The notes below the pieces were generated by a model. The model was not told the origin of the DNA. It worked only from the letters and a program-made list of their open reading frames with translations, and did not search any database. Below, piece after piece: positions 2,266 through 50,326 of a stretch of 64,000 nucleotides of DNA (the first letter of the stretch is position 1; every line of letters starts with the position of its first letter). Source of the DNA: Bolinopsis microptera (taxonomy: Eukaryota > Ctenophora > Tentaculata > Lobata > Bolinopsidae); the NCBI RefSeq assembly GCF_026151205.1, contig NC_087079.1, forward strand, positions 1,576,028 to 1,640,027. Reading direction: 5' to 3'. The position numbers and the translations under genes were made by a program.

Positions 2266-3930
2266 GTTGATATTCCGTCCAGTCAATAACTGTATATCTG
2301 CTTACCTAATTATAGGTAGGTAGTAATTTAATGAAATTTATTTACGAATACCTGACATAATTCTCTTAGCTTTTGTTTTGAACTCGATTTTATCCAACAA
2401 GTGCATGTTTTAGATATCAAGTGTGTCATTATGAAGATCCAAACCCTTTTACACTTTCAGAGGGGTTGGATGTTCCCAAACCCTGCACCCAGGTATGACT
2501 AATCATGTTGACTTGTACTGTCCTTCCTCAACAAGTAATGCTCGGGAGTTGCTATTTTCCTGTTCTAGGTAAGTTGTTTTTCTCTTTTCAGTCTTGATGG
2601 TTTTTTCTTTTATCTTATTTCCTTTTTTCGTCCCTTTTTCTCTTTTCTCGTTTCTTTTCTTTGCATTTCATTCTATTTAGATGCAATCTGTTTCTTGAAA
2701 TTATGTGGTCAAGTTGATAGACCGGATGAATTGGAAATATGAAGTGTATTTAAAACATCTTCCCCCCCCCCCCTACAAAGAAGCACAAAGCACCATCATA
2801 TCCACATGGTAAGCCAGCTCAGAAAACTTCAGTTTAAGCAGAATTTTAAAAACCACCTTGTTGAAGAAGTTACTCTAAAATTTTCTTTTATTTTTAAAAA
2901 TTATATTGTATTCACACAGTACCATCTTTAAATGATTATAATGACAGAAAAAAATTATAAATAAATAAAATACTCAGGTCAAATACTCAAGTTAGGGCAT
3001 CAGATTAAGACAACATACCAGTAAATTTTCAACATACACATGTTAGAGATTGTGCGTGAAAATAACGAATATATGCATGATTACATAGCACAAGAGGATA
3101 AACAGGACATAATATAATGTGAGTTACCACAAGTAGAATCTAGAAGTAAAATCACTTCAGCGAATTTAGAGAACTATATAAACTAGCAGTAGACTTGCTA
3201 CAGAAAGCAACTGCCCACAATGTACCGGCACTTATATTAACTGTTATTATACACACGTCATAATACAAAGCAACCGAGATATTTTGGGGAACAAATTGCG
3301 AAGAGAGCACTTTTGAATAGTTATTTGGTTTCAGTATATTTCAAAATAGATCATAAACGAGTGCTCAGTACCTATTTTTTTCTTTGGATAAGCAGTTATT
3401 GAATATTTGCATTAATTAACGTAGCATCTTTTATCACCACAAGTCCCAACTAAATAACGGTCAGCAGTCGAACAACACATTTTACGTTCGATTAGTATTT
3501 TGCAATTAAGAGAGAAGAATTCACCACGAGCATATCAAAAGTGAACAAACAGAGGATGGGCGACTATACCTGTAAGTCAATTACATCGCTTGGTTTTGCT
3601 TTTATATTAAATTGTTCAGCTTGTTGTATTGCTGCTAGTACAATGATAGAAGAAATTTGCATAATTGTTTTTCATTCCCAAAGCGAAACTCAGCATATTG
3701 TCACGATAATTGGCAAAAATTTATTATCCTTCTTTCAGAGTCGCGCGTCCAGTACACTAGGAAACTAGCAATACTGCTAATATCATGCTCTGGTTTTCGA
3801 AATAAACTATAAACTCCTATATTGTTATATGAGTTTTAATAGTATTATATAATATATATATTAGATTAAGAATGGACCTTTGTCGATGTCTAAGCATCAA
3901 TAAAGGCCCAACAGATAGTATAGTTATATA
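2266..3930. other. No recognisable gene
   Basis: Apart from a poly-C tract (about 2761-2773) and repeat similarity to 1520-1640, nothing is recognised. An open frame at 3541-3768 lacks an ATG at its start and contains a strong donor-like GTAAGTC soon after its first ATG, so I do not call it. Confidence 0.4.
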
Positions 3931-3975
3931 GAATTAGGCATAATATGATATGCATGATAAGACATGCATATTTTT

Positions 3976-4250
3976 ATGTGAAATACTAATCATACAAATC
4001 CAAACCTTTGCCGAAAAAGTGTCAAATGATAGGAGCGCAATTATCTTTATCATCTTTATTATCTTTATTATCTTTGTTATCTTTATTATCTTTATCATCT
4101 TTATCATCTTTATCATCTTTATTATCTTTACTATCTTTGTTATTTTTATTATCTTTATTATCTTTATTATCTTTATTATCTTTATTATATTTATTATATT
4201 TATTATCTTTATTATCTTTATTATCTTTATTATCTTTATTATCTTTACTT
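3976..4250. repeat. 9-bp microsatellite with shared left flank
   Basis: About 23 units of ATCTTTATT/C lie at 4043-4247. The left flank (GAAATACTAATCATACAAAT... at 3978) and the right flank (ACATGTTAGCACTTTTCG at 4256) recur around a second array at 11936-12320. Both arrays therefore sit at the same place relative to family G exon 2. The open frames across the array come from a unit length divisible by three. Confidence 0.9.
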
Positions 4251-25323: not shown

Positions 25324-25382
25324 GTGAGTAATAAATCCATAGTTATAAACACAGAGACTAATGGGTGTATAATCACGACATA

Positions 25383-26883
25383 CCTTAGTGCAAGAAATAT
25401 AGGCGGCAAGAATATAAGGCGCTAGAAATTAAGGCGGCAAGAAATTAAGGCGATATTTTTTTCGGAAAAAATACGATTTTTGATCGCAAATTTGGTTATA
25501 GTTTTGGTCGAAATAGTGTCAATTTTATTCTTTTATCAGTCTATAAAGCATAGAAATCTGTTTAAAAATACGATATATTGGACATTGGACGAAAGGCAAA
25601 TATTATAGTACCTAATTAAGCATAAATTAAGCTAAATTGAGTACTTAAGCAAATGAGTACTTAAGCAAATTGAGTACTTAAGCAAATGCAAGCAAATGGC
25701 ACAATTCATCACTCGAATGTAATCATGAAACACTGAAACTGTGCGAAAGTGGGTCGGCACTGCTGCACTGGCAGGAGGCAGAGTGAAGTGACGTCACTCG
25801 CAGGAGTCAGGACTGCAGGAGCGCCAGGCTGCAGTTGTCACGGCCGGCTCATAGATTTGATCAGATGTAAGAATGCGATCAGTTACCGTGTGTATGATAA
25901 ATTTCACGCGCATTGCTCACTTGCACCCACATCCCACAAGACCACAAGAGGTAGTTTAAAAAGTTAATCAAATCGTAACTTCAAGTCAAGAGGTCACTCA
26001 GCTTTCTATTTCGGTCCAGTTCCACGCTCTCTTCTACACACACACTCCCACCTCGCTGTTGTATAAAGGTATAACAATGTGTACTACTACAGTGACAATT
26101 GACATACCAGAGACATCATTTGTCATGGGGGTGAGAGGGTATCACTTTTATCAAAAGGATTGGACAAAACCATCTAAAGACGATACTTTATCATTCGAGA
26201 AGGAAGATAATAATCCCTACGATTCTTTTGCAGTCGCAGTGAAAGCGAAATTTCCGCACAAGCTAGTACCGATAACTGTAGGACATGTGCCAATTGAAAT
26301 ATCACGAATTGTCTACTTTTCGATTGGTCATGGCTGCTCCTACAAAGTAAAAGTCCTGGAGGAGAAACCTGCACGTTCTCCTCTTACACAGGGCGGCTTA
26401 GAAGTGAAGTGCTCTGTAACTGCTTCATGGACCAATGAGAAGGGAATAACGCTCCTCAAGAAGTTAGTCGACGAAAAGTACAGCTTCGACAAACGTTTGG
26501 AGGATGAATCAGCTGATATTATCAAGAAGCTATTCACGACGGAGCAAGATGACGACGACTATCTTGGTTATGGATTGCAGCTGCTGGAGATATATGACTC
26601 TGATGAAGAAGGAGAAGACGAGAATATTAATTGATATATTAATGTATTTAGACTCAAGTTAATTTATTTTAAATATGTATTTCATTGAATTCTAGCAAAT
26701 AACGAAATCGACATGTAAATTTAAAATAATAAAATCACACGAAAATTTCTTATGAAAAAATCGCAAGAAAAAAAATTAAGGCGGTTAGAAATTACGCTGG
26801 TCAGATATTAAGGCGGCAAGAAATTAAGGCGATTTTGTCAGAATCGCCTTAATTTCTTGCCGCCTATATTTCTTGCACTAAGG
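25383..26883. mobile_element. HIRAN-gene element with TIRs and TA target duplication
   Basis: The left end CCTTAGTGCAAGAAATATAG at 25383 is matched in inverse at 26883, with about 30-40 bp of inverted similarity, and TA lies immediately outside both ends (25381-25382, 26884-26885). Subterminal copies of AAGAAATTAAGGCG occur in both direct and inverted orientation, and the right end folds into a perfect 24-bp hairpin (26811-26834/26842-26865). The only plausible gene inside is the HIRAN ORF; no transposase is present, so it would be mobilised in trans (inference). It sits in the last visible intron of F6. Confidence 0.85.
26077..26634 (+). CDS. HIRAN-domain protein
   Basis: The intronless gene starts at ATG 26077 (AACAATGTG) and encodes 185 aa. 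Residues about 16-115 form a HIRAN domain: RGYHFYQKDW, EKEDNNPYDSFAVAV, VGHVPIEISRIVYF and LTQGGLEVKC match the conserved R-G, E.DN..D..AV.V, GH.P..IS and GG.E blocks. The rest is a charged helix-rich tail ending in a Glu/Asp run (DSDEEGEDENIN). HIRAN domains bind single-stranded 3' DNA ends in HLTF-type remodellers; here the domain stands alone. AATAAA-like signals follow near 26728. Its position inside a TIR element suggests it is transposon cargo or part of its replication strategy. Confidence 0.85.
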   Translation: MCTTTVTIDIPETSFVMGVRGYHFYQKDWTKPSKDDTLSFEKEDNNPYDSFAVAVKAKFPHKLVPITVGHVPIEISRIVYFSIGHGCSYKVKVLEEKPARSPLTQGGLEVKCSVTASWTNEKGITLLKKLVDEKYSFDKRLEDESADIIKKLFTTEQDDDDYLGYGLQLLEIYDSDEEGEDENIN

Positions 26884-26927
26884 TACTTTGATAACGAAAT
26901 CTCCCCACATGAGGGTCGAGGGAGACG

Positions 26928-31582: not shown

Positions 31583-32032
31583 TGTTAGGTTATAGGATTA
31601 GATGATAGTGACATGGGAACAGGTGGTTCATCAATTGTGACCGGTCAATCGTGACCTGCCTAGGACCATTAGGGTCGGTTCATTCAACCATGCATTTAAG
31701 TGACCGAAATAAAGTAAAAGAGTTGCTGTGCAAAATATACTGGAATTTTACCATTGGTTGACAACTAGGCGAGGTAGCCGTCCATTGGTTGTAAGTCATG
31801 TGACCTAGGTCACATGACCATAGCAGGTGGACTAAGCCTCATTTAACCTCGGTCAGCTCGAGCACTATACATTAGTGTGACGTCAGAATAGTTATTAAGA
31901 TCGGCACGGCAAGTAATATATATACAGATGTTTCGTGTCGTAAAAGTTAGTTTTTAGTTTATTTTAAACCACTTCTCCTAAACTGTTGTTTTCCGTTGTT
32001 CCCAAAAATACAAGAGAAGAACCCCGTTAACA
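31583..32032 (+). repeat. LTR, unit A (450 bp)
   Basis: The LTR begins TGTTAGG and ends CCCGTTAACA, with matching TGTTA/TAACA termini. It has a TATA-like AATATATATACAG at about 31914. The tRNA primer site follows one base later: TGGCGACGAGGAT at 32034-32046 is complementary to 13 nt at the 3' end of metazoan tRNA-Ser(GCT) (…ATCCTCGTCG plus CCA). Confidence 0.85.
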
Positions 32033-32159
32033 TTGGCGACGAGGATTACGACCGACGTTGGGACATCTTGCTACTGAAGGCTACAACAATTACGCCTTAC
32101 TGCAGAATAAATGATGGAGAAAAGGTAACAACGGACAACTGAGATCCTGGTTCCAGATA

Positions 32160-32480
32160 AAGTCCTTGCTGGGAGGTAACCCAGATAAAGTCCTTGTTGG
32201 GAGGTAACCCAGATAAAGTCCTTGCTGGGAGGTAACCCAGATAAAGTCCTTGCTGGGAGGTAACCCAGATATCAAGTCCTTGCTGGGAGGTAACCCAGAT
32301 ATCAAGTCCTTGCTGGGAGGTAACCCAGATATCAAGTCCTTGCTGGGAGGTAACCCAGATATCAAGTCCTTGCTGGGAGGTAACCCAGATATCAAGTCCT
32401 TGCTGGGAGGTAACCCAGATATCAAGTCCGTGCTGGGAGGTAACCCAGATATCAAGTCCTTGCTGGGAGGTAACCCAGAT
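32160..32480. repeat. 11 tandem 28/30-bp repeats in the LTR element
   Basis: The repeat is CTTGCTGGGAGGTAACCCAG plus ATATCAAGTC (30 bp) or ATAAAGTC (28 bp, first three or four copies). In one forward frame the 30-bp units encode repeats of LLGGNPDIKS; two reverse frames are also open, as expected for any stop-free unit divisible by three. Unit B has the same number of copies. Confidence 0.9.
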
Positions 32481-35400
32481 CTGATGTTTCCCCAAGATCC
32501 TGTAAACTTAAAATGGAACTCAATCCATGGTATCTATAGTGGCGAAATCAACCTACGATAGGAAAATAGTGACAGAGGGGTGTGGAGAACGGATAAGCTG
32601 ACTACAAACGGTTGATTACTCGGACAATCTAGTTCTACTTTAATCTACTGGATACAAACGAAAGAGTTGAGATAAAAAGAGGTATATTTTTTAACCTTTT
32701 AAATTTTAAAGCCTATTTGAGAAAAAATATCAAAATCAACACGAGAGCAGAAAATTTTGGAAATTTCAAAAAATTGTCAATCTTATTATTTTTTGCTACG
32801 AAATCATGAATATATTTATCTAAAATTTTAACAAAATTTTATAATAAGTTTACGAGTTTCATAATGTTCAACATTTTAATGAAACAGTCTACTTAGTAAG
32901 TGAACAAAACTAAGGTTATCACTTGAAAATTTTTCGTATAACATGGTCCAACCTCAAATTTTTGTCAATTTTTCAAGTATTATTATGCTATTTCAAGTTA
33001 ATGATATGTTGATGCTTGACTTGGAGCTAAGTTAAAGTTAAAGTCATATAAACTAGAAACTAGAGTTGTTTAGCATTTTGAACTAGGCGTGTGATCGTTT
33101 GTTCCAGTGAGATTCCAGTATGACACAGTAGGTTTAAGTGAAATACACAGTAGGTGTCTGGTGTAAGTGAAATGAACAGTGAAATGCACGGTAAATTTGA
33201 GTGAAATGCACAGTGAATTTAAGTGAAGTACACAGTAAGTGTATGTGAAATGTGCAGTAAAAATATCGATAGGTGTTTCTCGAGTGACCGCATGCTGTGA
33301 CGGTCTGATAGTGAGTGATAAGGTCCAACAATTGAGTTGGCTTGTTACAGCTTTAAAAAGTTTATGAATAATAATAATATAGCCAGCTGTTAGTGTAAAT
33401 CCCGAAAACGAATGGGTTCGAATTACTTGCGGGTCCTGCTATTTATGATAACAACTTGCTATTGACTTGTAGCCTACTATAAGAGTATAAGTTTACCTAT
33501 AATATTGGCCTTGTATAAAACATGACGGCTAGAACTGCTTCACATGGTAAAATCCATGGAAATTTGTAGTGTGTATTTCAAGTTGATATAACTCTTGAGA
33601 CTATTAATACATTAACCTGACAATATTTTGTGCAATGACGATTGTATGAAATTAAATGACAGATAAGGATGCACTGACAGGGCACTGACTCTCTTTATGC
33701 ACAAAGACTCAAGACTGAACCGACGACTTTAACTTTGAATTATTTTAGGGAAAGTTAGTAAGTTCGGCCGTTCATGGAATAGCAATATCGTTTAATATAT
33801 CATAATAGACAGAAAATTATTCAGTTGAGTAAGCCTTAGTTACTGATACTAGTATTTCAGTAAGAGCATTGAAGTATTAAATCGTACCATTCAAAGTAAG
33901 GAATTGCACTTACACGCTGGATGAATTTGAATGCATTTTAGGTCGTAGTAGTAGTTCTCTTTTGAGAGTAATGTAATAATGTATGCGTCATAAATTAGAC
34001 TGACGTTGATACTGTTAGATTTTAATGGAGGTTGACCTGTTAGCAATGTTGAAATTGCTTTGTTTGAAGTTTAGAAGTTTATGTACATATCATGACGTTG
34101 AATATTTGCTTTGTCCTTGGTTGCGAAGCTAACAGCCAAGACAAGCGGAACTTGGCGCTTTTGTTGTGAGAATTGTGTAACGGCGTGTGGTTGTTAAATT
34201 GACAACCGAGAATATGCTTGCAAGCTATTGTGGAGAGTTTTTTTTGTTGCCGTTAAATGCCAAGTTTTGAGAACTTAAACTACTGACCGTGTAATAAATG
34301 CTAAGTGTGAGTGGGAGATGTTTTGTAAGAAAATGTAAGAATAAGTATAAGTGAATTACGGGCAAGTATTTTCCGAATGGCACGGGACATTTTAATGCAA
34401 TTTAATTTATGTCTGAATAAATTACTCTGCCCATCTAGAAAGTAGAAACAGAAATCTTGTCTCAGTTTGTATGGTGAATCTTAGGGGTAGGACAGAATTT
34501 TGTCCATTAGTACATTAGGACTAGCCGACTATGGTAAACTGCCAGTTGTATTTTATACAAAGTTGCAAAGTTATAATCATTATAACTGATCGCAGCTTGT
34601 GGTTGTTTAGTGATAAAGTGAACGACCTGAATTTAGGCTTAGGAGTTGCTGATGTTTTGTGTTGCAGTGTAATGCCAAGTTTTGAGAACTTCATACCTTT
34701 AAGTTTAGAGATTGAGAGTTTATTTTTAAATGTAACACCATAGAGTGTTGTAAGTTTTACCTCATGAACATGTGACTGTGCAAGTGAGTGTGAGTGTACC
34801 AGGATTAGAATACGTTATTGATATGATTCCGAGTTATCTATCAGAAATTAAGTTTTAAAAATTCATCGGAATATTTTCCTAATTCGAAATTAGGAATAGA
34901 CGTGTAAAGTGACTTTACACTGTAAACTCAATGTGAACGTAATTGAATGTAATATTAAGTTTAAGAGCAAGTTATAACCAATTTTTTCCTCTAGTATCAT
35001 TCAGAATATTTTGTTAACCTTTAACTAAGAATATATTTTTGAAATAATGTGAAACTTATCGGTAGGTATTGACAGCAAGTTAGAGCAGAGCCGTTAAATC
35101 TGGAATTGCACTCGTAGGCCAAGGCCAAGGCTTCTGAGTAGTAAGGATTTATACAGTAGTGCATGCTCTACTTTACGACACGTTAGTCGTTAATACTGAA
35201 CGTACAATTACAAAGAAGACATTATTATGTGATCGGTATAATTACCATTAAGCTTTTCAGGATTTTAATTATAATAGTTCGTAATTATAATAATTTAATT
35301 ATAATAATCCGTAATTATAATAATTTAATTATAATAAATCGTAAGCTTTAAAATTAAAATAAATATATAAAGATAGTAATAAACTTACAATTTAAAAAGT

Positions 35401-36058
35401 TCTTAATAAGAACTTGCAAAAGCCCGTTGGTGGCCCCAAGTCCCACTCTGAGCGGACACTTCTACGAATATCTTGAATTACTTTATTAATCTCATGAGAT
35501 GCTTTATTATCAAACAATACGTAATTAATCTTGTATGTTGAGTTTTAATTCAGTCTATACACATATCTGCGTTTATTGTGGGCTTTTTCTCCACTACCGC
35601 TCTATACATATCTGCTCTGTGGTATCTATTGTGCTCGTCTCTGAACACATATCCGCTTTATTGATAACAAGAATATCCCCAAAATTGGTAGTTATTGAAG
35701 ACATATTTGTCCCTGTTGCAAGTCGAGACCTCTTATTGAGACCCGATATAATAAATACGCTTTATTTAATTTACTCTTCACTGGATACTGTAATAGTAAG
35801 AGATATTTACCCTCTGTAGCACACATTTTGCTATTGCACACATTTTCCGACACTTGTAAAAATTTCACGGATTTTCGACACTTGTAAAAATTTCACGGAT
35901 TTTCGATACTTGTAAAAATTTCGAGCAATTTCATCACTTGTAAAAATTTGTATTGAAGATGAATATCACAGAGGCTTTGTTATTGGGATCATGAGATTAC
36001 TTGCTGTACATAGTTATTTGGTTACCAGAGCTTTTAAAAATTCCTTGAGCGCGGTAAG
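32481..36058 (+). mobile_element. Non-coding interior of an LTR element (LARD-like), unit A
   Basis: The region downstream of the primer site lacks any gag, protease, RT or integrase motif in all frames. It carries a short GTGAAATGCACAGTAA-type repeat cluster (33130-33260), AT-rich unique DNA, and a three-copy 28-bp repeat (CACTTGTAAAAATTTC..., 35848-35945). A large primer-site-bearing but non-coding element is best described as a non-autonomous LTR retrotransposon, mobilised in trans. The 3' LTR is not clearly identified (see 36059). Confidence 0.6.
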
Positions 36059-36510
36059 TGTTAACTATGGAACAGGACACACTGACACAGATGGTTTGAT
36101 CGTGACCTGTCTAGAACCATTAACAAGCATTAAGTCAAGCTACGAGAGCCGTCCAGTGGACTATTGAGTCCTTAATGTACTTGACAATGCAGCGGCTTGC
36201 CTGCATCGCTCAAGGGACAAACAACATGCAATGACGTTTGTTTTCATGGTAACGGTCTGACTATATCAAGCCGGAGAACGCTGCGGGAAATCAGATTGAA
36301 TCAGTTCGTTTCGCAGAAGTTTGTAATCAATCAGTTCTTGATTGATAAATCTACTCAACTCGTTCCTCCACAGGTTCTATTTTATCTTAAAAAGATGCAC
36401 AGTTCGTTCTTTAGTCTTGTGATACATAGTTCGCTCTTCAGTTTGCTAATTTGATTCTAATTCAAGTTGCATGCTAACTTATCATAAATAGCAGGGGCTC
36501 GTATTATACA
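36059..36510 (+). repeat. Diverged LTR-like segment, unit A
   Basis: It starts TGTTAACTATGGAACAGGAC and shares TTGATCGTGACCTGTCTAG-ACCATTA and GCCGTCCA blocks with the LTRs at 31583 and 42740, but the rest is different. It may be a related solo LTR or a decayed 3' LTR. The end near TATTATACA (36509) is a guess. Confidence 0.5.
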
Positions 36511-36601
36511 ATAATATTTAAACTTTTTTAACCCAACTTGAGAGTCTAAATTTTGAATTCTAAAATTCATATTTCTTATCTAATTTTGCGATGTTGACCA
36601 G

Positions 36602-36697
36602 GTCACAGGCACGGTAAAATTTAACTACATCTCCTTCCTGAACTACACTGGTGATGTAATGTATATCGACTTTGTCTGTTTAAAGTGTGCTGTGTGA
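36602..36697 (+). CDS. Exon-like frame VTGTVKF, unit A
   Basis: After GACCAG the frame reads VTGTVKFNYISFLNYTGDVM and YIDFVCLKCAV and stops. VTGTVKF resembles the first strand of family F (VTGKIEF, VAGKVTF). The unit B copy at 50880-50975 appears identical. No initiator Met is near, so it would need an upstream exon. Confidence 0.35.
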   Translation, partial: VTGTVKFNYISFLNYTGDVMYIDFVCLKCAV

Positions 36698-36896
36698 GCT
36701 ATTTGCTTTGTTTTGTAATTTACGATTAACTCTGCTAATTTCATAGTGTCGCTTTGTCAGCAATTTTTATGCAATTTTCTGAAATTCGTAATTATTTGCC
36801 CTTTATTATTTGATTAAGAGTTATTCTTGAAAACTGTGAGGAAATTTTTTGATAAACTGTTTTTCAAATCAATACTTAACGTTTCAGTTGATAAAT

Positions 36897-37720
36897 ATGA
36901 CAACTAAACAGCAAGAGATATCAGAATCAAATGAGACTGATAAGATCGTTATACGAGAAATAAAGCCACTTTTACCTCAGGAGATATGGGAGATAATATT
37001 CTACCTGATTCCAATCAGAGATAAGTTGACATGCAGCAAGCTTATTATAGAATTCAGAGACTTTTATCAAGAATTATTCACAAACTTTGAGAAGTATGTT
37101 GACAGCTTCAGAGACTTTAAAGTTGAAAAAGCGTCGCTTAATGGACTGAACTTATACCAGATTCGATGCATCCTTATGGTTTCTCCCATGATCTGAGAAT
37201 TCCCAGCGATTCTGCATCGACAAGTATTTCATTTTCTATCTATCTTGAAAATAGTTGGGTACGATGGCTGGACGATACGTTGTCCTCATTCAAATACATA
37301 ACATACGAAGACGATGGAACGAACAATAAATACCTTACATATTTGAAGGTAAACGCAATATCTTGGTTACGATTCAGAGTGCAAAACATTATACTACCGA
37401 CGGGGCGGTACAATCTGTATTACAAAATAAAAGGGCCATGTCACAACATCAGGAACTTATACATGGTATCAGTGAAACACAGTGCCACAAGAGAAGATAA
37501 TGATGGGTACATTGATCTCAGAACACTACAGGATCTCAGTTCTGATTGGGAGTGGGTCCCAGTATACAGGGACAACACCTTCAATACACTCATGGAGGTG
37601 GGGTATAAGTTTGAGGAGGGGGATGAGCTTTCTGTTGAGTTGTTCAGTTTGAACGAGTTTTGGACCAGGGATTTGTCATTTCATATGATCAGGTTTGTTG
37701 CTGTAGAGGATGTTCAATAG
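36897..37720 (+). pseudogene. F-box protein gene, unit A copy, 5-bp frameshift
   Basis: It is the same gene as 51165-51983 in unit B but with five extra bases (TTCGA or ATTCG) at about 37162-37166, after codon 88. The N-terminal frame therefore ends at 37196 and the C-terminal half is only open in another frame (37166-37720). Elsewhere the two copies differ at a handful of sites (for example E/P, F/Y, T/S and D/V changes). As sequenced, this copy cannot make the full protein. Confidence 0.85.
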
Positions 37721-38097
37721 TTGTGAGATGTTGTTCTTGGTTACAAGTCTTGGATTGAAGAATATGGGTAATGAGTAGTAATATATATGGTACTTGGGAG
37801 TGATACAAATTGTTTTAAGACACGCTATCTCGTGCTAACTAATTGAAGTTTCAATTATTATTATTATTTATTTACTTATACTTTATCAAATTCTTGTTTT
37901 ACTTATCTAATATTCAATGAAACAAGAAATTTCAATGAAACAAGAAATTCTACTTCAAGCTGCTAATGATAATAATTAAGTGATAAAGATATTTATGCTA
38001 TAATTCAAATAATTAACTATCGTGATACCAATTCTATAATGTTTCTTTCCCCTTCTAGTTACAACATGGGTTAATGTACTTGAAATAAAAATAATAC
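37721..38097. other. 3' flank of the F-box gene
   Basis: No further gene is seen. AT-rich DNA includes a short direct repeat of AATGAAACAAGAAATTTC near 37917-37950. Confidence 0.5.
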
Positions 38098-39475
38098 ATT
38101 TATAAAGTATATTTAATACAGATATAAAAATAAGAATCTGAAAGTTATGAGAAAGCTCTGCTAAATCACTGGTAGTTTGACTATCACGCTGTGCAGTATG
38201 AGTCGAATTATATTTTAATAAAGATATAAAAATAAGAATCTGAAAGATATTCGAAAGCTCTGCTAAATCACTGGTAGTCTGACTATCACGCTGTGCGGTA
38301 TGAGTCGAATTATATTTAATACAGATATAAAAATAAGAATCTGAAAGTTATGAGAAAGCTCTGCTAAATCACTGGTAGCTTGACTATCACGCTGTGCGGT
38401 ATGAGTCGAATTATATTTAATACAGATATAAAAATAAGAATCTGAAAGTTATGAGAAAGCTCTGCTAAATCACTGGTAGCTTGCCTATCACGCTGTGCAG
38501 TATGAGTCGAATTATATTTAATACAGATATAAAAATAAGAATCTGAAAGTTATGAGAAAGCTCTGTTAAATCACTGGTAGCTTGCCTATCACGCTGTGCG
38601 GTATGAGTCGAATTATATTTTAATAAAGATATAAAAATAAAGAATCTGAAAGATATTCGAAAGCTCTGCTAAATCACTGGTAGTCTGACTATCACGCTGT
38701 GCGGTATGAGTCGAATTATATTTAATACAGATATAAAAATAAGAATCTGAAAGTTATGAGAAAGCTCTGCTAAATCACTGGTAGCTTGCCTATCACGCTG
38801 TGCGGTATGAGTCGAATTATATTTTAATAAAGATATAAAAATAAAGAATCTGAAAGATATTCGAAAGCTCTGCTAAATCACTGGTAGTCTGACTATCACG
38901 CTGTGCAGTATGAGTCGAATTATATTTAATACAGATATAAAAATAAGAATCTGAAAGTTATGAGAAAGCTCTGCTAAATCACTGGTAGCTTGCCTATCAC
39001 GCTGTGTGGTATGAGTCGAATTATATTTAATATACAGATATAAAAATAAGAATCTGAAAGATAATCGAAAGCTCTGCTAAATCACTGGTAGTCTGACTAT
39101 CACGCTGTGCGGTATGAGTCGAATTATATTTAATACAGATATAAAAATAAGAATCTGAAAGTTATGAGAAAGCTCTGCTAAATCACTGATAGCTTGACTA
39201 TCACGCGGTGCGGTATGAGTCGAATTATATTTAATACAGATATAAAAATAAGAATTTGAAAGTTATGAGAAAGCTCTGCTAAATCACTGGTAGCTTGCCT
39301 ATCACGCTGTGCGGTATGAGTCGAATTATATTTTAATACAGATATAAAAATAAGAATCTGAAAGTTACGAGAAAGCTCTGCTAAAACACTGGTAGCTTGC
39401 CTATCACGCTGTGCGGTATGAGTCGAATTATATTTAATACAGATATAAAAATAAGAATCTGAAAGATAATAAAGA
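38098..39475. repeat. ~101-bp minisatellite, 13 copies, unit A
   Basis: Each unit contains GATATAAAAATAAGAATC, AGCTCTGCTAAATCACTGG and CACGCTGTGC...TATGAGTCGAATTATATT. Two sub-types alternate (GTTATGAGAAAG versus GATATTCGAAAG), suggesting higher-order amplification. Unit B has only three copies (52520-52855). Confidence 0.95.
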
Positions 39476-40445
39476 TAATAATACATTTATAATAAATGTA
39501 AACTGTATACAAATTAAAAGTGAGAAATACTATTAAAAGTAGAAAGTGAAGAATGAAAAATTATAAAGATATGAATAAAATGAAGAATGATACGAAGCTA
39601 TGAAGAGCAAACAGGCAATCATCATCTTATTGCAATTTACAAGCAGACGGTCCCATCCGCTCTATCGAGTTTGTGTTTCCAATGCCCCCAATGGATGCGG
39701 ACCGGATTGTAGTTTAAGGCTACAAATCTGACTATCTCACGATACGGCTGGGCATTGTTTGTGTGAGATAATGGTAAGATCGCTTGTAAGCAAAGGGTTC
39801 CAGCAAGGCGGGGATTCCCGCTAACTATAACAAAATAAGAGAGTATTCTCTCTAATTCCAAAAATTGAAAAATGACTGTTTGCAATTCATACTGCTTCAA
39901 TGTTATTATCATCACTGATAATTATAATAATGAAACCACTAGTACTGAAAAATAAAAGGATTAAATTAGGTGGGAATTCCCACTATATTTAATATAATTG
40001 GAGAGCACTCTCTTCGTTTACTTTTTTTTCTAGTTATACTACTGTTTGAATTTACTTGTTATTCTATTTTAATTTTAAATATTATCTTATTACACATTTT
40101 GCTACTATCTTTTCTTGCTATCTATTTTTAAAATGGTTAACCATACTTTTTTTCTTTTTTATTTTGGGGAAAATTTGCCCTCCTCAGCTGGTCGTTACTT
40201 TATTTTTTAAATATTCTTATCATTTAAAACTTTGATCAGCTGCAGGGGGTGAATTTGCGTCAAGGTTCTGTAATATGAACCAGTTTTCACAGAAAAAAGA
40301 CCGTCCGTAGGTGGTGAATAGCCACATCCTTCACGAGGTGACCCCGTTCTCTGCATTTTATTTTACCCTACTTTTTGACTTATATTTTTATTTTCCAATG
40401 CAGAGGTTACTAAATACGGCGGATCGGTTATAAAATACTTAGTAC
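39476..40445. other. No gene recognised, unit A
   Basis: A reverse frame at 39637-39915 is open in both units but differs by a few substitutions without obvious constraint. A T-rich tract and the GTGAATTTGCGTCAAGG block precede the promoter at 40446. Confidence 0.4.
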
Positions 40446-40455
40446 TATATAAAGG
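40446..40455 (+). promoter_or_regulatory. TATA box, unit A
   Basis: TATATAAAGG lies 45 bp before the ATG at 40491, giving a predicted short leader. The unit B equivalent is at 53846. Confidence 0.65.
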
Positions 40456-40490
40456 CTTAAAAACAGACCTCTTATCACAAAACTATTAGC

Positions 40491-41589
40491 ATGAGCGAAC
40501 TGACTTTTAATGTAACACGAGCCTTGAATGACTCTGTCATTGAATTTAAGCTTAGAGCCCCTGAAACACAGTTCAACGGAACCCTTGAAGAAGGGTTGGA
40601 GGTGCTCTTGGGGGGTGTTGACATGATAATAGAGCGCTTCATGCAACGACGGAACTGTTTCAAGTTCCATGTCACTTTGGACGGGGTATTTCAGGTATTT
40701 GATTTGCTACTAACAATCTGTTAAAATAGTGATAAGGAAATTTTCAAATCCAAAAGGAGTGGTTTAACAAGGAAAAAAATATAGATAAATAGAAGTTGAT
40801 ATATTTCATTTACAGAAACATATAAACGGTGAAGAGCAGACATTTGGTTTCAAGACACGAGCAACTGTGTGTCTGAGATCATCAAACAAGGATGAGATGA
40901 TCAATGAAGTTCGAAACAAAATCTTGGATTCATACGAGTCTTTTCAAGGAATGGGTTGGTAAAGTTTTCTAATTTTTATTTCATTAACCTCCAACTACCC
41001 TGACCCTAATCAAACCAAGTTGAGTTACGTTACAATTGCAGATACAAAGATTACTACAATTAATCTCAACAGGTAGCGGTTGGATATGGAGACGATGGCA
41101 AATGGTTACAGTGCTTGTCATAAAGTACAACCCTGTATCAGGATGATTGATTGAGTGATTGATTAGGGTCTATATATAGGGATCACTATAATGTTGAAAA
41201 TTGTTGTTTTATATCTTACTAATTTCAATTAACTTTAAGAACTTTCAGTAGTTTAAAACCACAAATCAATAACAAGAGTGATTGAAATTTAAAATGTAGA
41301 AGACATATAGCATTTTAGTTGAATTATGACGTGATTTAAGAACGTAATTATCCATGTTATATATAACACTCTATATAACATTATATAAACTCTCTTAAAT
41401 TCTAGAATGTCGACTTACTTGCCAACTCCCAAACTGTTGAAAAAGAGAAGATGTCTGTTGAACAAACGGAATAAAGATGACAAATCATTCCTTTATTGCA
41501 TTGTATTGTGGCTGCTTTGAAAAGACCTGATAGAAACCCAACACGACCTGGATTCTATAAGCGTTATGTCAAGAAACTAATCACGACAG
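40491..41589 (+). pseudogene. N-terminal module of a virus-like/transposon DNA polymerase B protein, unit A
   Basis: Exon 1 is 40491-40694 (MSELTFNVTRALNDS... to VTLDGVFQ), exon 2 40816-40954 (KHINGEEQTFGFKTRA..., ending FQGMG), exon 3 from 41073 (GSGWIWRRWQMVTVLVIKYN, PVSG then stop) and exon 4 41406-41589 (STYLPTPKLLKKRRCLLN...). The order F.TRA, GSGW, KYNP..G, YLP, LNIRNKDDKSFLYC is that of the region preceding polymerase B in large transposon/virus-like proteins of invertebrates. A 5-bp insertion at about 41497-41501 breaks exon 4 in this unit. The exon 3-4 junction has no clear GT donor. Confidence 0.7.
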
Positions 41590-41804
41590 GTATGTATCAA
41601 ATATTAACAGTTATAACATATGCAACCATCACGCGACCGTAATAATCTAGTGAATATCTATAGCTTAGTGAAGAACTCCTACTACATACATCAGATCAAA
41701 AACGGGCAATAACTTGCTAGTTGCTGGTAGGACGGAGGGCAGGGAAATATGTGTTGGCTTATCCCTGTGTGGAAATAACAATCAACATTGCCAGATATGT
41801 GATA

Positions 41805-41984
41805 ATGAGGTGGGAGCTCGAGAGAATACGGAATGTCGTAATATCGGCAATACGCTTGATTTTAGGGGTATTGGTGACAATGGGAGTGTTTTACCTAAGA
41901 GAAGAAGAGAAAAAGAAAAGAATGAAAGAATCGGGGCAACAGACCGGAGACCCACACGCGTGTTATGTGTGCTTGCCGCAGTAA
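41805..41984 (+). CDS. Small single-pass membrane protein, unit A
   Basis: ATG 41805 to TAA 41984 encodes 59 aa: a charged start (MRWELERIRN), one membrane segment (VVISAIRLILGVLVTMGVFY), a highly charged LREEEKKKRMKES stretch and a Cys-containing end (DPHACYVCLPQ). From this Met the unit B protein is identical; just upstream a 3-bp indel keeps frame, so a longer start (about 41721) is possible. No family is recognised. It lies 0.2 kb after the polymerase N-terminal exons on the same strand. Confidence 0.55.
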   Translation: MRWELERIRNVVISAIRLILGVLVTMGVFYLREEEKKKRMKESGQQTGDPHACYVCLPQ

Positions 41985-42585
41985 AAACTCTTAGTTTTTA
42001 TCATGCACAAATATTGTTTATGAACAATATTTGTATGTATATAAATATGTTTATCATAATATGTACTATTTATTACACCCTTTAGTAAGATCTGTTTTTT
42101 GGACTAATCCAAAATCATAACACAAAATTACTACAAATCTCCTTCAACGGAAAATAAAATATGTCTAAACATAACAAAGTATAAGAAGAGCCTTGCTATT
42201 GCAATAACACACATCATATAAACGGAAAAATTATCTAAAATCGCCCCACTCATCATCATAGCCTTGTTTCTTATCGAGGTACACCGTATGACGAAAATTT
42301 GTGTTTCTTCCGATGTCTCGCTCTATTTCGAAGAGCAAGTGTCAATGCATTAGAGAGAAAGACAAAGGAACTTTTTATTATAAAGTCTCATCAGAAAAAC
42401 CTTTATACCTTTATATTACATACGTTTTATAAAATATATTCTTAGTACTATTTTAGTTTTCAAGACAGTAGTGTTATATTATAGCATAATGATAAAATAT
42501 GACTACTTATTTATCAGTATCCACGTTCACTATTATATATAGATCACTATATACTTATATAGATCATCACCTATGATAGATCAAG

Positions 42586-42660
42586 ATGGCAGACATGGGC
42601 TACACTCGAGGATACTTAGCAGGGTTAGCTGAAGATATCTTAGATGAGTTTATTTTATAA
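42586..42660 (+). CDS. Short first-exon-like ORF MADMGYTRG, unit A (truncated gene)
   Basis: The ORF of 24 codons reads MADMGYTRGYLAGLAEDILD, EFIL and stops. Unit B has the same ORF at 55961-56035, followed by family K sequence. In unit A the similarity ends at 42661, the 3' breakpoint of the duplication. Confidence 0.35.
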   Translation: MADMGYTRGYLAGLAEDILDEFIL

Positions 42661-42670
42661 TCTAAAATCT

Positions 42671-42739: not shown

Positions 42740-43187
42740 TGTTAGGTAACAGGATTGCATAATTATGATTAAGATAATATGGAACAGGACACAGGTGTCT
42801 TGATCGTGACCTTTCTAGGACCATTAGGGTCAGTTCATTCAACCATGCATTTAAGTGACCGCTCTGACTAAGAGATGCTGTGCAAAATATACTGCAATTT
42901 TACCATTGGTCGACCACTAGGTGAGGTAGCCGTCCATTGGTTGTAAGTCATGTGACCTAGGTCACATGACCATAGCAGGTGGACTAAGCCTCATTTAATA
43001 CCGGTCAGCTCGCGCACTAACTTTAGTGTGACGTTAAAATAGTTAATAAGACCTGCAAGGTAGGTAATATAAATACAGATGTTTCGTGTCGTAAAAGTTT
43101 TAGTTTTTAGTTTATTTTAAACCACTTCTCCTAAACCGTTGTTTTCCGTTGTTCCCAAAACAATACAAGAGAAGAAGCCCGTTAACA
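42740..43187 (+). repeat. LTR, unit B (448 bp)
   Basis: It is homologous to 31583-32032 with the same TGTTAGG...GTTAACA ends and the tRNA-Ser-type primer site at 43189-43201. The first ~40 bases diverge more than the rest. Confidence 0.85.
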
Positions 43188-43315
43188 TTGGCGACGAGGA
43201 TTACGACCGACGTTGGGACATCTTGCTGCTGAAGGCTACAACAATTACGCCTTACTGCAGAATAAATGATGGAGAAAAAGTAACAACGGACAACTGAGAT
43301 CCTGGTTCCAGATAA

Positions 43316-43636
43316 AAGTCCTTGCTGGGAGGTAACCCAGATAAAGTCCTTGCTGGGAGGTAACCCAGATAAAGTCCTTGCTGGGAGGTAACCCAGATAA
43401 AGTCCTTGCTGGGAGGTAACCCAGATATCAAGTCCTTGCTGGGAGGTAACCCAGATATCAAGTCCTTGCTGGGAGGTAACCCAGATATCAAGTCCTTGCT
43501 GGGAGGTAACCCAGATATCAAGTCCTTGCTGGGAGGTAACCCAGATATCAAGTCCTTGCTGGGAGGTAACCCAGATATCAAGTCCGTGCTGGGAGGTAAC
43601 CCAGATATCAAGTCCTTGCTGGGAGGTAACCCAGAT
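43316..43636. repeat. 11 tandem 28/30-bp repeats, unit B
   Basis: The array has the same composition as 32160-32480, including a single G variant (AAGTCCGTGC) in the penultimate unit, so it was not re-expanded since the duplication. Confidence 0.9.
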
Positions 43637-46600
43637 CCGATGTTTCCCCAAGATCCTGTAAACTTAAAATGGAACTCAATCCATGGTATCTATAGTGGCG
43701 AAATCAACCTACGATAGGAAAATAGTGACAGAGGGGTGTGGAGAACGGATAAGCTGACTACAAACGGTTGATTACTCGGACAATCTAGTTCTACTTTAAT
43801 CTACTGGATACAAACGAAAGAGTTGAGATAAAAAGAGGTATATTTTTTAACCTTTTAAATTTTAAAGCCTATTTGAGAAAAAATATCAAAAATTTTTATC
43901 AAAATCAACACGAGAGCAGAAAATTTTGGAAATTTCAAAAAATTGTCAATCTTATTTTTTTTTGCTACGAAATCATGAATAGATTTATCTAAAATTTTAA
44001 CAAAATTTTATAATAAGTTTACGAGTTTCATAATGTTCAACATTCTAATGAAACAGTCTACTTAGTAAGTGAACAAAACTAAGGTTATCACTTGAAAATT
44101 TTTCGTATAACATGGTCCAACCTCACATTTTTGTCATTTTTTCAAGTATTTTGTGTGAAATACACAGTAGGTGTCTGGTGTAAGTGAAATGAACAGTGAA
44201 ATGCACGGTAAATTTGAAATGCACAGTGAATTTAAGTGAAGTACACAGTAAGTGTATGTGAAATGTGCAGTAAAAATATCGATAGGTGTTTCTCGAGTGA
44301 CCGCATGCTGTGACGGTCTGATAGTGAGTGATAAGATCCAACAATTAAATTGAGTTGGCTTGTTACAGCTTTAAAAAATTTATGAATAATACTAATATAG
44401 CCAGCTGTTAGTGTAAATCCCGAAAACGAATGGGTTCGAATTACTTGCGGGTCCTGCTATTTATGATAACAACTTGCTATTGACTTGTAGCCTACTATAA
44501 GAGTATAAGTTTACCTATAATATTGGCCTTGTAAACATGACGGCTAGAACTGCTTCACATGGTAACATCCATGGAAATTTGATATAACTCTGGAAACTAT
44601 TGAAACATTAACCTGACAATATTTTGTGCAATGATGATTGTATGACATTAAATGACAAATAAGGATCGACCAATTGACTGACTCCCTCGACGAGAGGGCA
44701 CTGACTTTCTTTTTGCACAAAGACCGAACCGACGACTTTAACTTTGAGTTATTTTATGGAGAGTTAGTAAGTTCTGCCGTTCATGGAATAGCGATATCGT
44801 ATAATATATCATAATAGACAGAAAATTATTCAGTTGAGTAAGCCTTAGTTACTGATGCTAGTATTTCAGTAAGAGCATTGAAGTATTAAATCGTACCATT
44901 CAAAGTAAGGAATTGCACTTACACGCTGGTGAATTTGAATGCATTTTAGGTCGTAGCAGTAGTTCTCTTTTGAGAGTAATGTGATAATGTATGCGTCATA
45001 AATTAGACTGACGTTGATACGGTTAGATTTTAATGGAGGTGGACCTATTAGCAATGTTGAAATTGCTTTGTTTGAAGTTTATAGTTTATGTACAGATCAT
45101 GATCATGAATATTTGCTTTGTCCTTGGTTGCGAAGCTAACAGCCAAGACAAGCGGAACTTGGCGCTTTTGTTGTGAGAATTGTGTAACGGCGTGTGGTTG
45201 TTAAGTTGACAACCGAGAATATGCTTGCAAGCTATTGTGGAGAGTTTTTTTTGTTGCCGTCGAATGCCAAGTTTTGAGAACTTAAACTACTGACCGTGTA
45301 ATAAATGCTAAGTGTGAGTGAGAGATGTTTTGTGAGAAAGTGTAAGAATAAGTCAAAGTGAATTTCGGGCAAGTATGTTCCGAGTGGCACGGGATATTTT
45401 AATGCAATTTAATTTATGTCTGAATAAATTACTCTGCCCATCTAGAAAGTAGAAACAGAAATCTTGTATCAGTTTGTTTGGTGAATCTTAGGGGTAGGAC
45501 AGAATTTTGTCCATTAGTACATTAGGACTAGCCGACTATGGTAAACTGCCATGCCAGTTGTATTTTATACAAAGTTGCAAAGTTATAATCATTATAACTG
45601 ATAGCAGCTTGTGGTTGTTTAGTGATAAAGTGAACGACCTGAATTTAGGCTTAGGAGTTGCTGATGTTTTGTGTGGCAGTATAATGCCAAGTTTTGAGAA
45701 CTTCATACCTTTAAGTTTAGAGATTGAGAGTTTATTTTTAAATGTAACATCATAGAGTGTTGTAAGTTTTCCTCATGAACATGTGACTGTGCAAGTGAGT
45801 GTGAGTGTACCAGGATTAGAATACGTTATTGATATGATTCCGAGTTATATATCGGAAATTAAGTTTTAAAAATTCATCGGAATATTTTCCTAATTCGAAA
45901 TTAGGAATAGATGTGTATTAAACTCAATGTGAACGTAATTAAATGTAATATTAAGTTTAAGAGCAAGATATAACCAATTTATTCCTCTAGTATCATTCAG
46001 AATATTTTGTTAACCTTTAACTAAGAGTATATTTTTGGAAATGTGAAACTTATCGGTAGGTATTAACAGCAAGTTAGAGCAGAGCCGTTAAATCTGGAAT
46101 TGCACTCGCAGGCCAAGGCCAAGGCTTCTGAGTAGTAAGGATTTATACAGTAGTGCATGCTCTACTTTACGACACGTTAGTCGTTAATACTGAACGTACA
46201 ATTACAAAGAAGACATTATTATGTGATCGGTATAATTACCATTAAGCTTTTCAGGATTTTAATTATAATAATTCGTAATTATAATAATTTAATTATAATA
46301 AATCGTAAGCTTTAAAATTAAAATAAATATATAAAGATAGTAATAAACTTACAATTTAAAAAGTTCTTAATAAGAACTTGCAGAAGCCCGTTGGTGGCTC
46401 CAAGTCCCACTCTGAGCGGACACTTCTACGAATGTCTTGAATTACTTTATTAATCTCATGAGATGCTTTATTATCAAACAATACGTAATAAATCTTGTAT
46501 GTTGAGTTTTAACTCAGTCTCTATACATATCTGCGTTTATTGTGGGCTCTTTCTCCACTACCGCTCTATACATATCTGCTCTGTGGTATCTATTGTGCCC

Positions 46601-46677
46601 GTCTCTGAACACATATCCGCTTTATTGATAACAAGAATATCCCCAAAATTGGTAGTTATTGAAGACATCTTTGTCCC
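43637..46677 (+). mobile_element. Non-coding interior of the LTR element, unit B
   Basis: Collinear with unit A at high identity, with small deletions (for example around 44150). No coding motif is present. The similarity to unit A stops at about 46677, after TTTGTCCCT. Confidence 0.6.
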
Positions 46678-49600
46678 TCGCTGACATTTCTTCTTCTGTC
46701 CATTCTTGGCAGTTTCTTTTGGTTGTTTTCGTCCAGGAAAACACACGACTCATCTTTTCGAAACGCTGACGAGAGAACGTGCATTTCTCTTCTATTTCTG
46801 CCCGGGGGGCAATACTAGTACAACTTACCTTAATATTATTATTATTTATTAATCAACTATTTACAGCAAACACAAGATAATAGAAATTAAATCATAAAAT
46901 CGAGTGGCCGAGTAGTCTCGACTCACCCATAACTTCTCCAAAGACGTCTATCATGAGCTTTGTACACTAAATCGTTGAAATTACTTAAACTAAATCTTTT
47001 ATTTACAATCACAATAATTTGTTTTGTCATAATGTCTTTTAATAATAAATCAAATAAATTTGAACGAGGTCTGCCCCTCCTTCCTTTGTAGTCAAAACAT
47101 CCTAAACATGCAAATCTGAAAGATAAGAAGGCGGGAGTGTCATCACCGCTTCTGAGAACGTGCCCAAGCATCTTCCATCTTGCTTTCTTGATCCTTTCAG
47201 TAAGGGGTCTGACATTACATCTCTTATATAAATTCTCGTTACTGATAACCGTAGGCCAATAGGTGTTGATTATCTGTCTCAGATGCTTCCTTTGAAGAAC
47301 GTCGACAGATGCCGTTACGGTTTCAGGAGCAGCCCAGCTGCTACAGTTATACAACAACACTGAAGTGACAAGAGCTTCGTACAGCTTCAGCTTTCTACTC
47401 TCACTGATCTGAACAGAACTATTCAACCAGACTTTCTTGTAGGTATAGAAGGCAACATTGGCTTTGTTGCGTCTGTTGACAATATCTCTTTCTGAGCAGA
47501 GCTTTGATCCTAATAGCACTGACTCTCGCCACTCTTCATCTCCTCTAATTTTATTGCCATGGGCATCTAAAGCATCTGTATCTGCCAAATACACTCTTGT
47601 AAACACCGTCTTTGATTCGTTAACAAAGAGACTCCAATCCTTTAGTATATCACTGGCAATCTCTAGTATCTTCACCAGGCTCTGACCATCTTCACTCAGA
47701 AGCTCAGCATCGTCAGCATAGGCGGACTCTAACGGGAGGCCTCTATCAGAGACTGGGGGGTTCGGTCTAGGAATCGTGACACTGATCACGGCTCTGATGT
47801 GATTCAGGGCACCGGCAAGGGTCAATGTAAACACTTTACCTGCCAGACTGTCTCCCTGGTAAGCGCCAATATTAATCACAAATTCACCAGACTCAGATCT
47901 GTTGACCGTCACCTTGAGCTTTGTATTTGAGAGGAGGTACTGAACTAGGCGAATGTCGTCTCTAGAGCATCCTGCATCAATGAGGAGGTTGATGATGGTC
48001 TGTCTGCGGATAGTATTAAACGCAGCGGTCATGTCAATGTTGATTTTACTATACTCAAACTCGCGCCTGGTAACCACTGATGTCAACATTCTCTGAGACC
48101 ATACCAGGTCAGCACAACTGCGACCCTGCTTGTATGCCGCCTGCCAAGGTCCAGTGTACATATCAACGTGGTAATTGATTCTGTTCAAGGCTACGAGGGA
48201 TAGGACTTTTCTAGTTCCATTTAGCAATGTGAGGGGCCGGATAGACTTTATCGGACCTCGGGGTTTTCCTGGCTTCTGAAGGGGTGTCAGGATACCTTCT
48301 CCAATAGCTGGGATGTATGTGTTGGTCTCAAAGGAGAGATTATAGATCCTAGCCAACTCACAGTGGAGGGGATATCCAGCAGCTTTCATTAGCTCATTAG
48401 GTATACCGTCAGGGCCACACGCTCTACCGGATTTCAGCTTCATAACAGCACGGCCAACTTCTTCAGGTGTTATGGGACAGAGGAGGCTTCCAGGAGGGTC
48501 TATGAATGCTGGGAGGTGGGGTTCATCTTTGTCATTGAACTCATTATTAAAGTATTCTTTAATAGCTTCTGCTTTTAATGAGTCAGAACCTAAGGTGTTC
48601 CCGTCTGCATCGTGGACAGTTACTCCGTCTTTCTTCATCCTACACTGGGCCAAAGTTCTATTCGCTTCAAACATGCTTCTGCAGCTGTCGGTGTTGTTGA
48701 TGACATCTACTAGGGCGTTAGCAGTGGCCTCGTTGATGGATTTCAACCTCTTTTTGATGGTACGTTTGAGATGGTTGATTCTTTTTCTGAGGTCACTCCT
48801 GTCGCTTATCCCTGTGAGACTACATTCTTGCTGAAGAGACTTTCTCTCTGCTGAAAGTTTAACGACAGTTGGATCGTCGCTGTACTGATGAGGCTTCCCC
48901 GGGGGCACTTTACCAACCACCTGGACCTTAATAAGGATAATTAAATTATAAATAATAATAATAATAAAGATATAGGTGTTTGCTGAATTGCTGTATTATA
49001 CATTCTGTGTCCAGCTCTTATGGGTCCCATCTCTTGCCCTGCAAGCCCTGTTTCTTGTTTATACAACATATTATAACTATGTAATAAACATTTTTTGTAG
49101 TGTAGGATTGTTTGAATTTCTATTTGTTAATTCATATAATATACACTTTATGATTGTTTCGCCCATTTTTCTTCCCTTGCATTGCAAGCCCTGTCTCTTG
49201 TAAAAACATCCACTTTTGTAGATACACACAGTCTCTACGTCTTTATCCTCTGGTCCCTAGGGTCAGCTGACTCCGGGCCAGAGGAAAATTACCGATTGCC
49301 AAGGTTTGATGCCTAGGCAGTCGAGACCTCTTATTGAGACCCGATATAATAAAGACTTTGTGATATACAATTGTTGCAGTTGTTTCTCTTGTTTTTCTTC
49401 CCTTGCTCTGCAAGCCCTGATTCTTGTATAAACATTGTGTTTAGTATTTTGTATATTGTATTAATTGTGGTAAATTGTGGTTCACATTTCGGTATTAGTA
49501 ATTATAGGTGTTTGCTGAATTACTGTATTATACACTCTGTTGCCAGCTCTTGTGTGTCCCATCTCTTGCCCTGCAAGCCCTGTTTCTTGTCTATACAACA

Positions 49601-49716
49601 AATTATAATTGTGCAATAAACATTTATTGTAGCGTAGGATTATTTGAATTTCTATTTGCTAATTCATATAATATTCACTTTATGATTGTTTCGCCCATTT
49701 TTCTTCCGTTGAATTG
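46678..49716. mobile_element. 3.0-kb segment present only in unit B
   Basis: Between TTTGTCCCT (unit A 35718) and TGCAAGTCGAGACC the unit B copy carries an extra ~3 kb: the RT ORF on the minus strand with AAT-rich microsatellites on both sides (46829-46847, 48950-48966), then imperfect repeats of CTGCAAGCCCTGTTTCTTG (about 49036, 49189, 49406, 49576) and two ~215-bp copies (48972 and 49504). This is an insertion in B, or a deletion in A through the GCAAG repeats. Confidence 0.7.
46923..48920 (-). CDS. Non-LTR retrotransposon reverse transcriptase ORF, 665 codons, 5'-truncated
   Basis: The uninterrupted frame contains KLKSGRACGPDGIPNELM (block 1), IRPLTLLNGTRKVLS, KINIDMTAAFNTI (motif A, D296), NIGAYQGDSLAG (motif B), ESAYADDAELLSE (motif C, YADD 401-404) and the LINE-type C-terminal region (KARWKMLGHVLRSGDD, CFDYKGRRGRPRSN). 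All RT catalytic Asps are kept. AFN instead of AFD in motif A is unusual. No apurinic endonuclease domain precedes the RT and no ATG lies near the start; the frame opens with GTG just after a CCAG, so the 5' part is truncated or on a missing exon. The exact clade is uncertain. Confidence 0.9.
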   Translation of the reverse strand: MVGKVPPGKPHQYSDDPTVVKLSAERKSLQQECSLTGISDRSDLRKRINHLKRTIKKRLKSINEATANALVDVINNTDSCRSMFEANRTLAQCRMKKDGVTVHDADGNTLGSDSLKAEAIKEYFNNEFNDKDEPHLPAFIDPPGSLLCPITPEEVGRAVMKLKSGRACGPDGIPNELMKAAGYPLHCELARIYNLSFETNTYIPAIGEGILTPLQKPGKPRGPIKSIRPLTLLNGTRKVLSLVALNRINYHVDMYTGPWQAAYKQGRSCADLVWSQRMLTSVVTRREFEYSKINIDMTAAFNTIRRQTIINLLIDAGCSRDDIRLVQYLLSNTKLKVTVNRSESGEFVINIGAYQGDSLAGKVFTLTLAGALNHIRAVISVTIPRPNPPVSDRGLPLESAYADDAELLSEDGQSLVKILEIASDILKDWSLFVNESKTVFTRVYLADTDALDAHGNKIRGDEEWRESVLLGSKLCSERDIVNRRNKANVAFYTYKKVWLNSSVQISESRKLKLYEALVTSVLLYNCSSWAAPETVTASVDVLQRKHLRQIINTYWPTVISNENLYKRCNVRPLTERIKKARWKMLGHVLRSGDDTPAFLSFRFACLGCFDYKGRRGRPRSNLFDLLLKDIMTKQIIVIVNKRFSLSNFNDLVYKAHDRRLWRSYG

Positions 49717-49969
49717 CAAGTCGAGACCTTTTATTGAGACCCGATATAATAAATACGCTTTATTTAATTTACTCTTCACTGGATACTGTAATAAACACTC
49801 TGTACATGGTCCTCTTATCTTTCTTCCCTTGTTATGCAAGCCCTGTCTCTTGTTTATACAATCTTTAACTCTATATTAGGTAGATTGCGTAATTATTATG
49901 GATTTTATATTTTCTGTATTAATAATAAACGTATTAATAATAAACATATTTGATGGACTACGGTAAGTA

Positions 49970-50220
49970 AGAGATATTTACCCTCTGTAGCACACATTTT
50001 GCTATTGCACACATTTTCCGACACGGATTTTCGACACTTGTAAAAATTTCACGGATTTTCGACACTTGTAAAAATTTCACGGATTTTCGACACTTGTAAA
50101 AATTTCACGGATTTTCGACACTTGTAAAAATTTCACGGATTTCCGACACTTGTAAAAATTTCACGGATTTTCGATACTTGTAAAAATTTCGAGCAATTTC
50201 ATCACTTGTAAAAATTTGTA
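49970..50220. repeat. 28-bp repeat array, unit B
   Basis: About seven copies of TTCGACACTTGTAAAAATTT-CACGGATT lie here, versus three in unit A (35848-35945). A single copy occurs at about 24128. Confidence 0.85.
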
Positions 50221-50326
50221 TTGAAGATGAATATCACAGAGGTTTTGTTATTGGGATCATGAGATTACTTGCTGTACATAGTTATTTGGTTACCAGAGCT
50301 TTTAAAAATTCCTTGAGCGTGGTAAG

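Follow-up and report, generated by a model that had tools for sequence, protein, structure and literature searches.

Transposons of the Tc1/mariner and pogo groups, which serve as genetic tools, as a rule carry one gene. Cleavage in the Tc1/mariner group leaves short 3′ overhangs, and KP and other internally deleted P elements carry private internal deletions with both ends retained. Six families of the pogo superfamily (Passer, Tigger, pogoR, Lemi, Mover, and Fot/Fot-like) have been surveyed, with one or two ORFs that encode transposases (PMC7386202). The HIRAN domain of HLTF binds 3′-OH ends and is disabled by the N90A-N91A substitution (PMC11237066), with Y72 and Y93 stacking a dinucleotide (PMC4666394). 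When isolated, the HLTF HIRAN domain is a dominant negative that blocks HLTF from stripping Cas9, a post-cleavage complex, off cut DNA (PMC11237066).

Here, we describe a lineage of pogo-type transposons in Bolinopsis microptera that encode a free-standing HIRAN protein alongside the transposase. The starting point was a short element in a 64,000-nucleotide stretch of genomic DNA, referred to as the window, for which a preliminary description had reported a HIRAN gene as the only gene between inverted repeats.

Results

Ends and target site of the window element

The element in the window is an internally deleted copy of what we call family A (Table 1). Its limits, previously placed at 25381-26885, are corrected here so that the duplicated TA lies outside the element proper. 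With the TA counted in, the terminal inverted repeats match over 41 nt at 95% complementarity (25381-25421 versus 26845-26885). The window element holds ten 16-bp subterminal units, where ~2.8 matches are expected in a whole shuffled 4.1-kb element, and the array at the left end is probably bound by the transposase. The hairpin arises at the meeting point of the direct and inverted units. The flank to the left of the element is single-copy in the genome, and no second TACCTTA element is present in the window. Upstream of the HIRAN gene lies a 17-bp tandem repeat of 3.6 copies (25627-25687) that full-length copies have too. Elsewhere in the window, a direct segmental duplication with rearrangement links 31648-42666 to 42803-56041; its blocks measure 1.4-3.6 kb at 93-99% identity, and it contains tandem arrays with 30-bp and 101-bp units.

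Table 1. Positions of features of the family A copy, numbered from the first nucleotide of the window
Feature	Position	Strand	Basis or remark
Left TA target-site duplication	25381..25382	.	Fetched copies and empty-site match
Internally deleted, non-autonomous family A copy, 1,501 bp	25383..26883	+	26 genomic left ends; alignment to reference
Left terminal inverted repeat	25383..25421	+	Starts with CCTTAGTGCAAGAAATATAGGCGG
Four head-to-tail 16-bp subterminal units, left	25390..25452	+	Consensus GCAAGAAATTAAGGCG
Internal deletion junction	25588..25589	.	2,627 bp lost
HIRAN gene, open, 185 aa	26077..26634	+	Pfam PF08797, E 6.9e-6; predicted fold matches HLTF HIRAN
NNPYD codons, residues 45-49	26209..26223	+	Aligned with HLTF N90-N91-P92-Y93-D94, 3′-end pocket
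Four direct 16-bp subterminal units, right end	26768..26831	+	
Perfect 24-bp hairpin	26811..26865	.	26811-26834 paired with 26842-26865
Right terminal inverted repeat	26845..26883	-	
Two inverted 16-bp units, right end	26845..26876	-	
Right TA target-site duplication	26884..26885	.	

Across the 265 Mb and 232 contigs of the genome, the family A left end occurs in 26 copies that are ~100% identical, and this near-identity points to recent activity. The structure is no accident of one locus: the same termini bound all 19 copies that were read with their flanks, 18 of which have TA on both sides; the exception, C3:7565606-7566473, has CT at its left. One copy on C4 is inserted in a repeat, and its rejoined flanks match at least 40 uninterrupted copies of that repeat at 97-100% with a single TA. 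Given the TA flanks and this empty-site match, family A is a TA-duplicating transposon. The inverted repeats, TA duplication, subterminal repeats, and 24-bp hairpin of the preliminary description are all confirmed. Two family A copies, C4:14442429-14443085 and C1:4029053-4029970, lie in opposite orientation at an identical TA position of one repeat, and this repeat codes for part of a related transposase of pogo type.

The HIRAN protein

The only coding gene recognised in the window element is the HIRAN ORF (26077-26634), which has a 6-bp in-frame deletion relative to the full-length, 187-aa version. That this open frame encodes a true HIRAN protein is upheld by its PF08797 score of 26.3 bits, above the curated cut-off of 24.7 (the family B and F proteins described below also exceed the cut-off), and by an HLTF-like predicted fold. 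The model reaches a mean pLDDT of ~90 over residues 11-100, and it matches HIRAN structures of HLTF that were determined with DNA (6kcs, Z 13.4, rmsd 2.5 over 113 residues; 4xzf, Z 13.2; 4s0n, Z 12.9, Foldseek E 2.3e-5), followed by Rad5 (Z 9.5). A profile search of PDB sequences reached HLTF at E 0.19 only; it was the fold comparison that gave the assignment. The sole match of a single-protein search, an avidin stretch at E 0.0073, was disregarded. N45-N46-P47-Y48-D49 align with HLTF N90-N91-P92-Y93-D94; the pocket aspartate is invariant across the seven HIRAN proteins aligned, and the asparagine pair is complete in families A and B only.

The intact element has two genes

Four family A copies are 4.1-4.7 kb long and carry both genes (C12:10542603-10546757, C2:5319495-5323636, C13:9874129-9878256, and C9:7312460-7317130), with a 499-aa transposase and the 187-aa HIRAN protein encoded head to head on opposite strands. 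The transposase frame of the C2 copy is interrupted by a stop, and the C9 copy has a ~530-bp insertion close to its right end. The check proposed in the preliminary description thus succeeds: transposase-bearing elements share the inverted repeats, and other copies combine these repeats with HIRAN, the complete HIRAN frame being present in seven copies.

The transposase matches DDE_1 (PF03184, E 3.4e-8) in Pfam and has a DD35D triad at D242, D359, and D395; the triad is DD35D in families A, C, and F. A PDB sequence search with the transposase returned nothing relevant, and the structural assignment comes from fold comparison, in which a model whose own mean pLDDT is low, at 59, finds the Mos1 mariner transpososome with a Foldseek E of 4.9e-8 and a probability of 1.00. 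Because it combines a TA duplication, CCTTA termini, and a DD35D transposase with DDE_1, the intact element is assigned, on catalytic and target-site features, to the pogo/Tc1-mariner group as a cut-and-paste transposon of ~4.1 kb. A bacterial or phage mobile element was considered and rejected, as the transposase had no relative among viral and prokaryote contigs, and the HIRAN protein had none among viral contigs.

Pfam searches of the A, C, F, and partial B and D transposases gave no CENP-B_N, HTH_Tnp_Tc5, HTH_psq, BrkDBD, or HTH_ABP1_N match at E 10. At their N-termini the transposases read MSLHRFFQ in B, MPRTDIRHFFGVP in C, MSLHRYFQP in D, and MDIRSFFQP in F, all similar to the PCNA-binding box Qxx[ILM]xxF[FY] minus its Q; in A the sequence is MSVRNLLGYY, where the motif is poor and the similarity less clear. 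They are putative PCNA-binding motifs, a reading that is suggestive only; the pogo transposase of flies is a PCNA binder whose PIP box recurs as a conserved motif in Tigger and Lemi1 (PMC5371812). A likeness of these N-termini to that of RFC1, for which a PDB sequence search gave no match, carries no weight in this reading.

Five divergent families keep the gene pair

Searching this one genome with both family A proteins revealed five families, A, B, C, D, and F, that hold both genes inside ends of TA followed by CCTTA. They comprise, besides A, family B (C2:12.084-12.091 Mb; HIRAN 51% and transposase 49% identical to those of A, transposase broken), family C (C4:10.988, C2:7.643, and C3:19.424 Mb), family D (C10:16.844 Mb), and family F (C3:1.228-1.232 Mb). 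The genes are divergent in A to D and tandem in F. The transposases of B, C, D, and F are 27-49% identical to that of A, and identity among the proteins of the five families falls to about 30%. Every one of the 10 Pfam-level HIRAN matches in the genome belongs to an element of family A, B, or F. Among the matches listed, no HIRAN neighbour accompanies the strongest DDE_1 genes located elsewhere (e.g., C1:22244421). The closest pairs, A-B and C-F, are the same for HIRAN and transposase; a Mantel test of the two sets of identities finds a weak correlation, with a rho of 0.37 that 14 of 120 permutations equalled or exceeded.

HIRAN comparisons between families give pN 0.31 and pS 0.83 for A-B and pN 0.19 and pS 0.88 for D-E; silent sites are saturated in both, so that constraint is clear and dN/dS is not expressible as a number. 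These substitution values show strong purifying selection on HIRAN within the lineage that bears the transposase. Since five divergent families keep the pair under such between-family constraint, HIRAN is a selected working part of the transposon lineage.

The lone HIRAN gene is a deletion product

Aligned to C13:9874129-9878256 as the reference, the window copy consists of 1-206 joined to 2834-4128; the 2,627 bp that are absent include the whole transposase, and the HIRAN gene is kept with ~480 bp upstream of it. The earlier claim that HIRAN is the only gene thus stands for the window copy, which lost its transposase in this internal deletion, and fails for the element by nature. Fifteen of the 19 fetched family A copies are internally deleted, each with a different breakpoint. 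In three of these the HIRAN gene is complete and open; in the other 12 it is truncated or missing, and one of the 12 retains most of the transposase. As the deletions differ copy by copy and most lose HIRAN, a lone HIRAN gene is one deletion outcome among many. We infer that repair synthesis which is aborted after excision would produce such private breakpoints between retained ends. There are also MITE-like copies in which no gene is intact, and HIRAN therefore need not be supplied in cis.

HIRAN-only elements occur in two further families. Family D2 consists of ~1.09-kb elements that begin with TA followed by CCTTACAAGACTTTTTTGTGGC (C12:1571170+, L041; C9:14423459+, L035; C1:8821791+, L040). 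These are related to two-gene family D, and HIRAN-only derivatives therefore arose more than once. Between D and D2, HIRAN differs by few changes (pN 0.042, pS 0.063), values compatible with relaxed selection. Family G, which begins with TA followed by CCTTACTCGGGAATATTATAACCGGG, consists of ~1.0-kb MITE-like elements with a lone HIRAN-fragment frame of ~146 aa (e.g., L075:1047-2043, C10:4471046-4472042) and numbers at least 40 copies that are 91-99% identical. Most of the G frames read are without the initial part of the HIRAN domain.

Discussion

In these two-gene pogo-type transposons, HIRAN is probably an accessory protein that would handle 3′ DNA ends in excision, integration, or gap repair. 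The transposase would bind the 16-bp subterminal units, pair the ends, and excise the element, and excision would leave short 3′-OH overhangs as in other Tc1/mariner elements. Short overhangs of this kind suit a pocket for a 3′-terminal dinucleotide, and the HIRAN protein is therefore proposed to hold or guard 3′ ends, at the element or the donor site, after cleavage. It would then help the post-cleavage complex to finish integration, or guide repair synthesis, perhaps with PCNA as a partner through the PIP-like transposase N-terminus; the internal deletions would be the products of aborted gap repair. The function that the preliminary description had suggested for 3′-end binding, in transposition or in repair at excision sites, is plausible. 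A bolder picture, offered tentatively and with some doubt, is that of a dedicated two-protein machine in a distinct pogo-related lineage, in which a PCNA-binding transposase and a free HIRAN protein that captures 3′ overhangs would link excision and the repair of the gap with the replication machinery; the element would in this way be copied back, or its post-cleavage complex would be protected.

HIRAN retention could alternatively reflect gene regulation or evasion of host defence. The protein would then be a regulator or anti-host factor that competes with host 3′-end binders of the HLTF/Rad5 type or represses transposition, and not a helper of catalysis. The dominant-negative action of the isolated HLTF HIRAN domain against removal of Cas9 by HLTF (PMC11237066) offers a precedent, and the divergent layout in families A to D would permit separate control of the two genes. 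However, no host HIRAN gene is found at the Pfam level, so the competitor to be blocked may be absent here, and we consider this explanation unlikely.

The preliminary description had left room for chance capture of one gene, and the window copy by itself, with HIRAN only, would fit a host or viral HIRAN gene that was picked up once and persists as a functionless passenger, as gene capture by transposons does occur. This is very improbable, and for the lineage it is ruled out by the five families that, at about 30% identity, all keep the pair with HIRAN under strong constraint; nor does the genome offer another Pfam-level HIRAN gene as a donor, though introns could hide one. Equally improbable is that elements of the window type are functional units selected to keep HIRAN: the open frame in three deleted A copies and the copy number of family G would agree with this, but the A breakpoints each seem private and 12 of the 15 mapped deletions removed or cut HIRAN, the D2 derivatives seem relaxed, and most G frames lack part of the domain.

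A lineage in which a DNA-end-binding partner is conserved would reveal how the DNA ends of a cut-and-paste transposon are managed by the transposon itself, and with two proteins it would allow a direct test of what 3′-end binding does in transposition. By extension, transposon genes and not host repair genes may account for some of the free-standing “HIRAN domain-containing” proteins annotated in eukaryotic genomes. Within the literature searched, which covered few subscription journals, no paper pairs HIRAN with pogo, none is relevant to HIRAN together with transposases or transposable elements, and we found no published description of a HIRAN-carrying pogo-type lineage.

In terms of known systems, P elements with internal deletions, KP among them, are like family A in having private deletions that keep both ends; they belong to another superfamily, and the window copy retains an accessory gene in place of a truncated transposase. 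The HIRAN protein shares with HLTF and Rad5 the fold and the NNPYD pocket, whereas it is free-standing, transposon-encoded, and has an acidic disordered tail and neither SNF2 translocase nor RING. Passer elements have in common a DD35D triad, TA duplication, and a transposase of 400-500 aa, but have a single ORF, TIRs mostly <30 bp, and Brk and HTH motifs (PMC9976928); with two genes and no Brk match, the intact element was not assigned to Passer. The pogo superfamily as a whole shares with the element the TA duplication, short TIRs, DDE_1, and a Mos1-like catalytic fold, and the DD35D triad is that of Passer and Fot (PMC7386202). In contrast to that superfamily, no CENP-B, HTH_Tnp_Tc5, or Brk DNA-binding domain is recognised in the transposase, although Mover is also without detectable N-terminal DNA-binding motifs (PMC7386202). 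What further sets the element apart from the pogo superfamily is its second, non-transposase gene, encoding HIRAN, together with its long subterminal arrays of 16-bp units.
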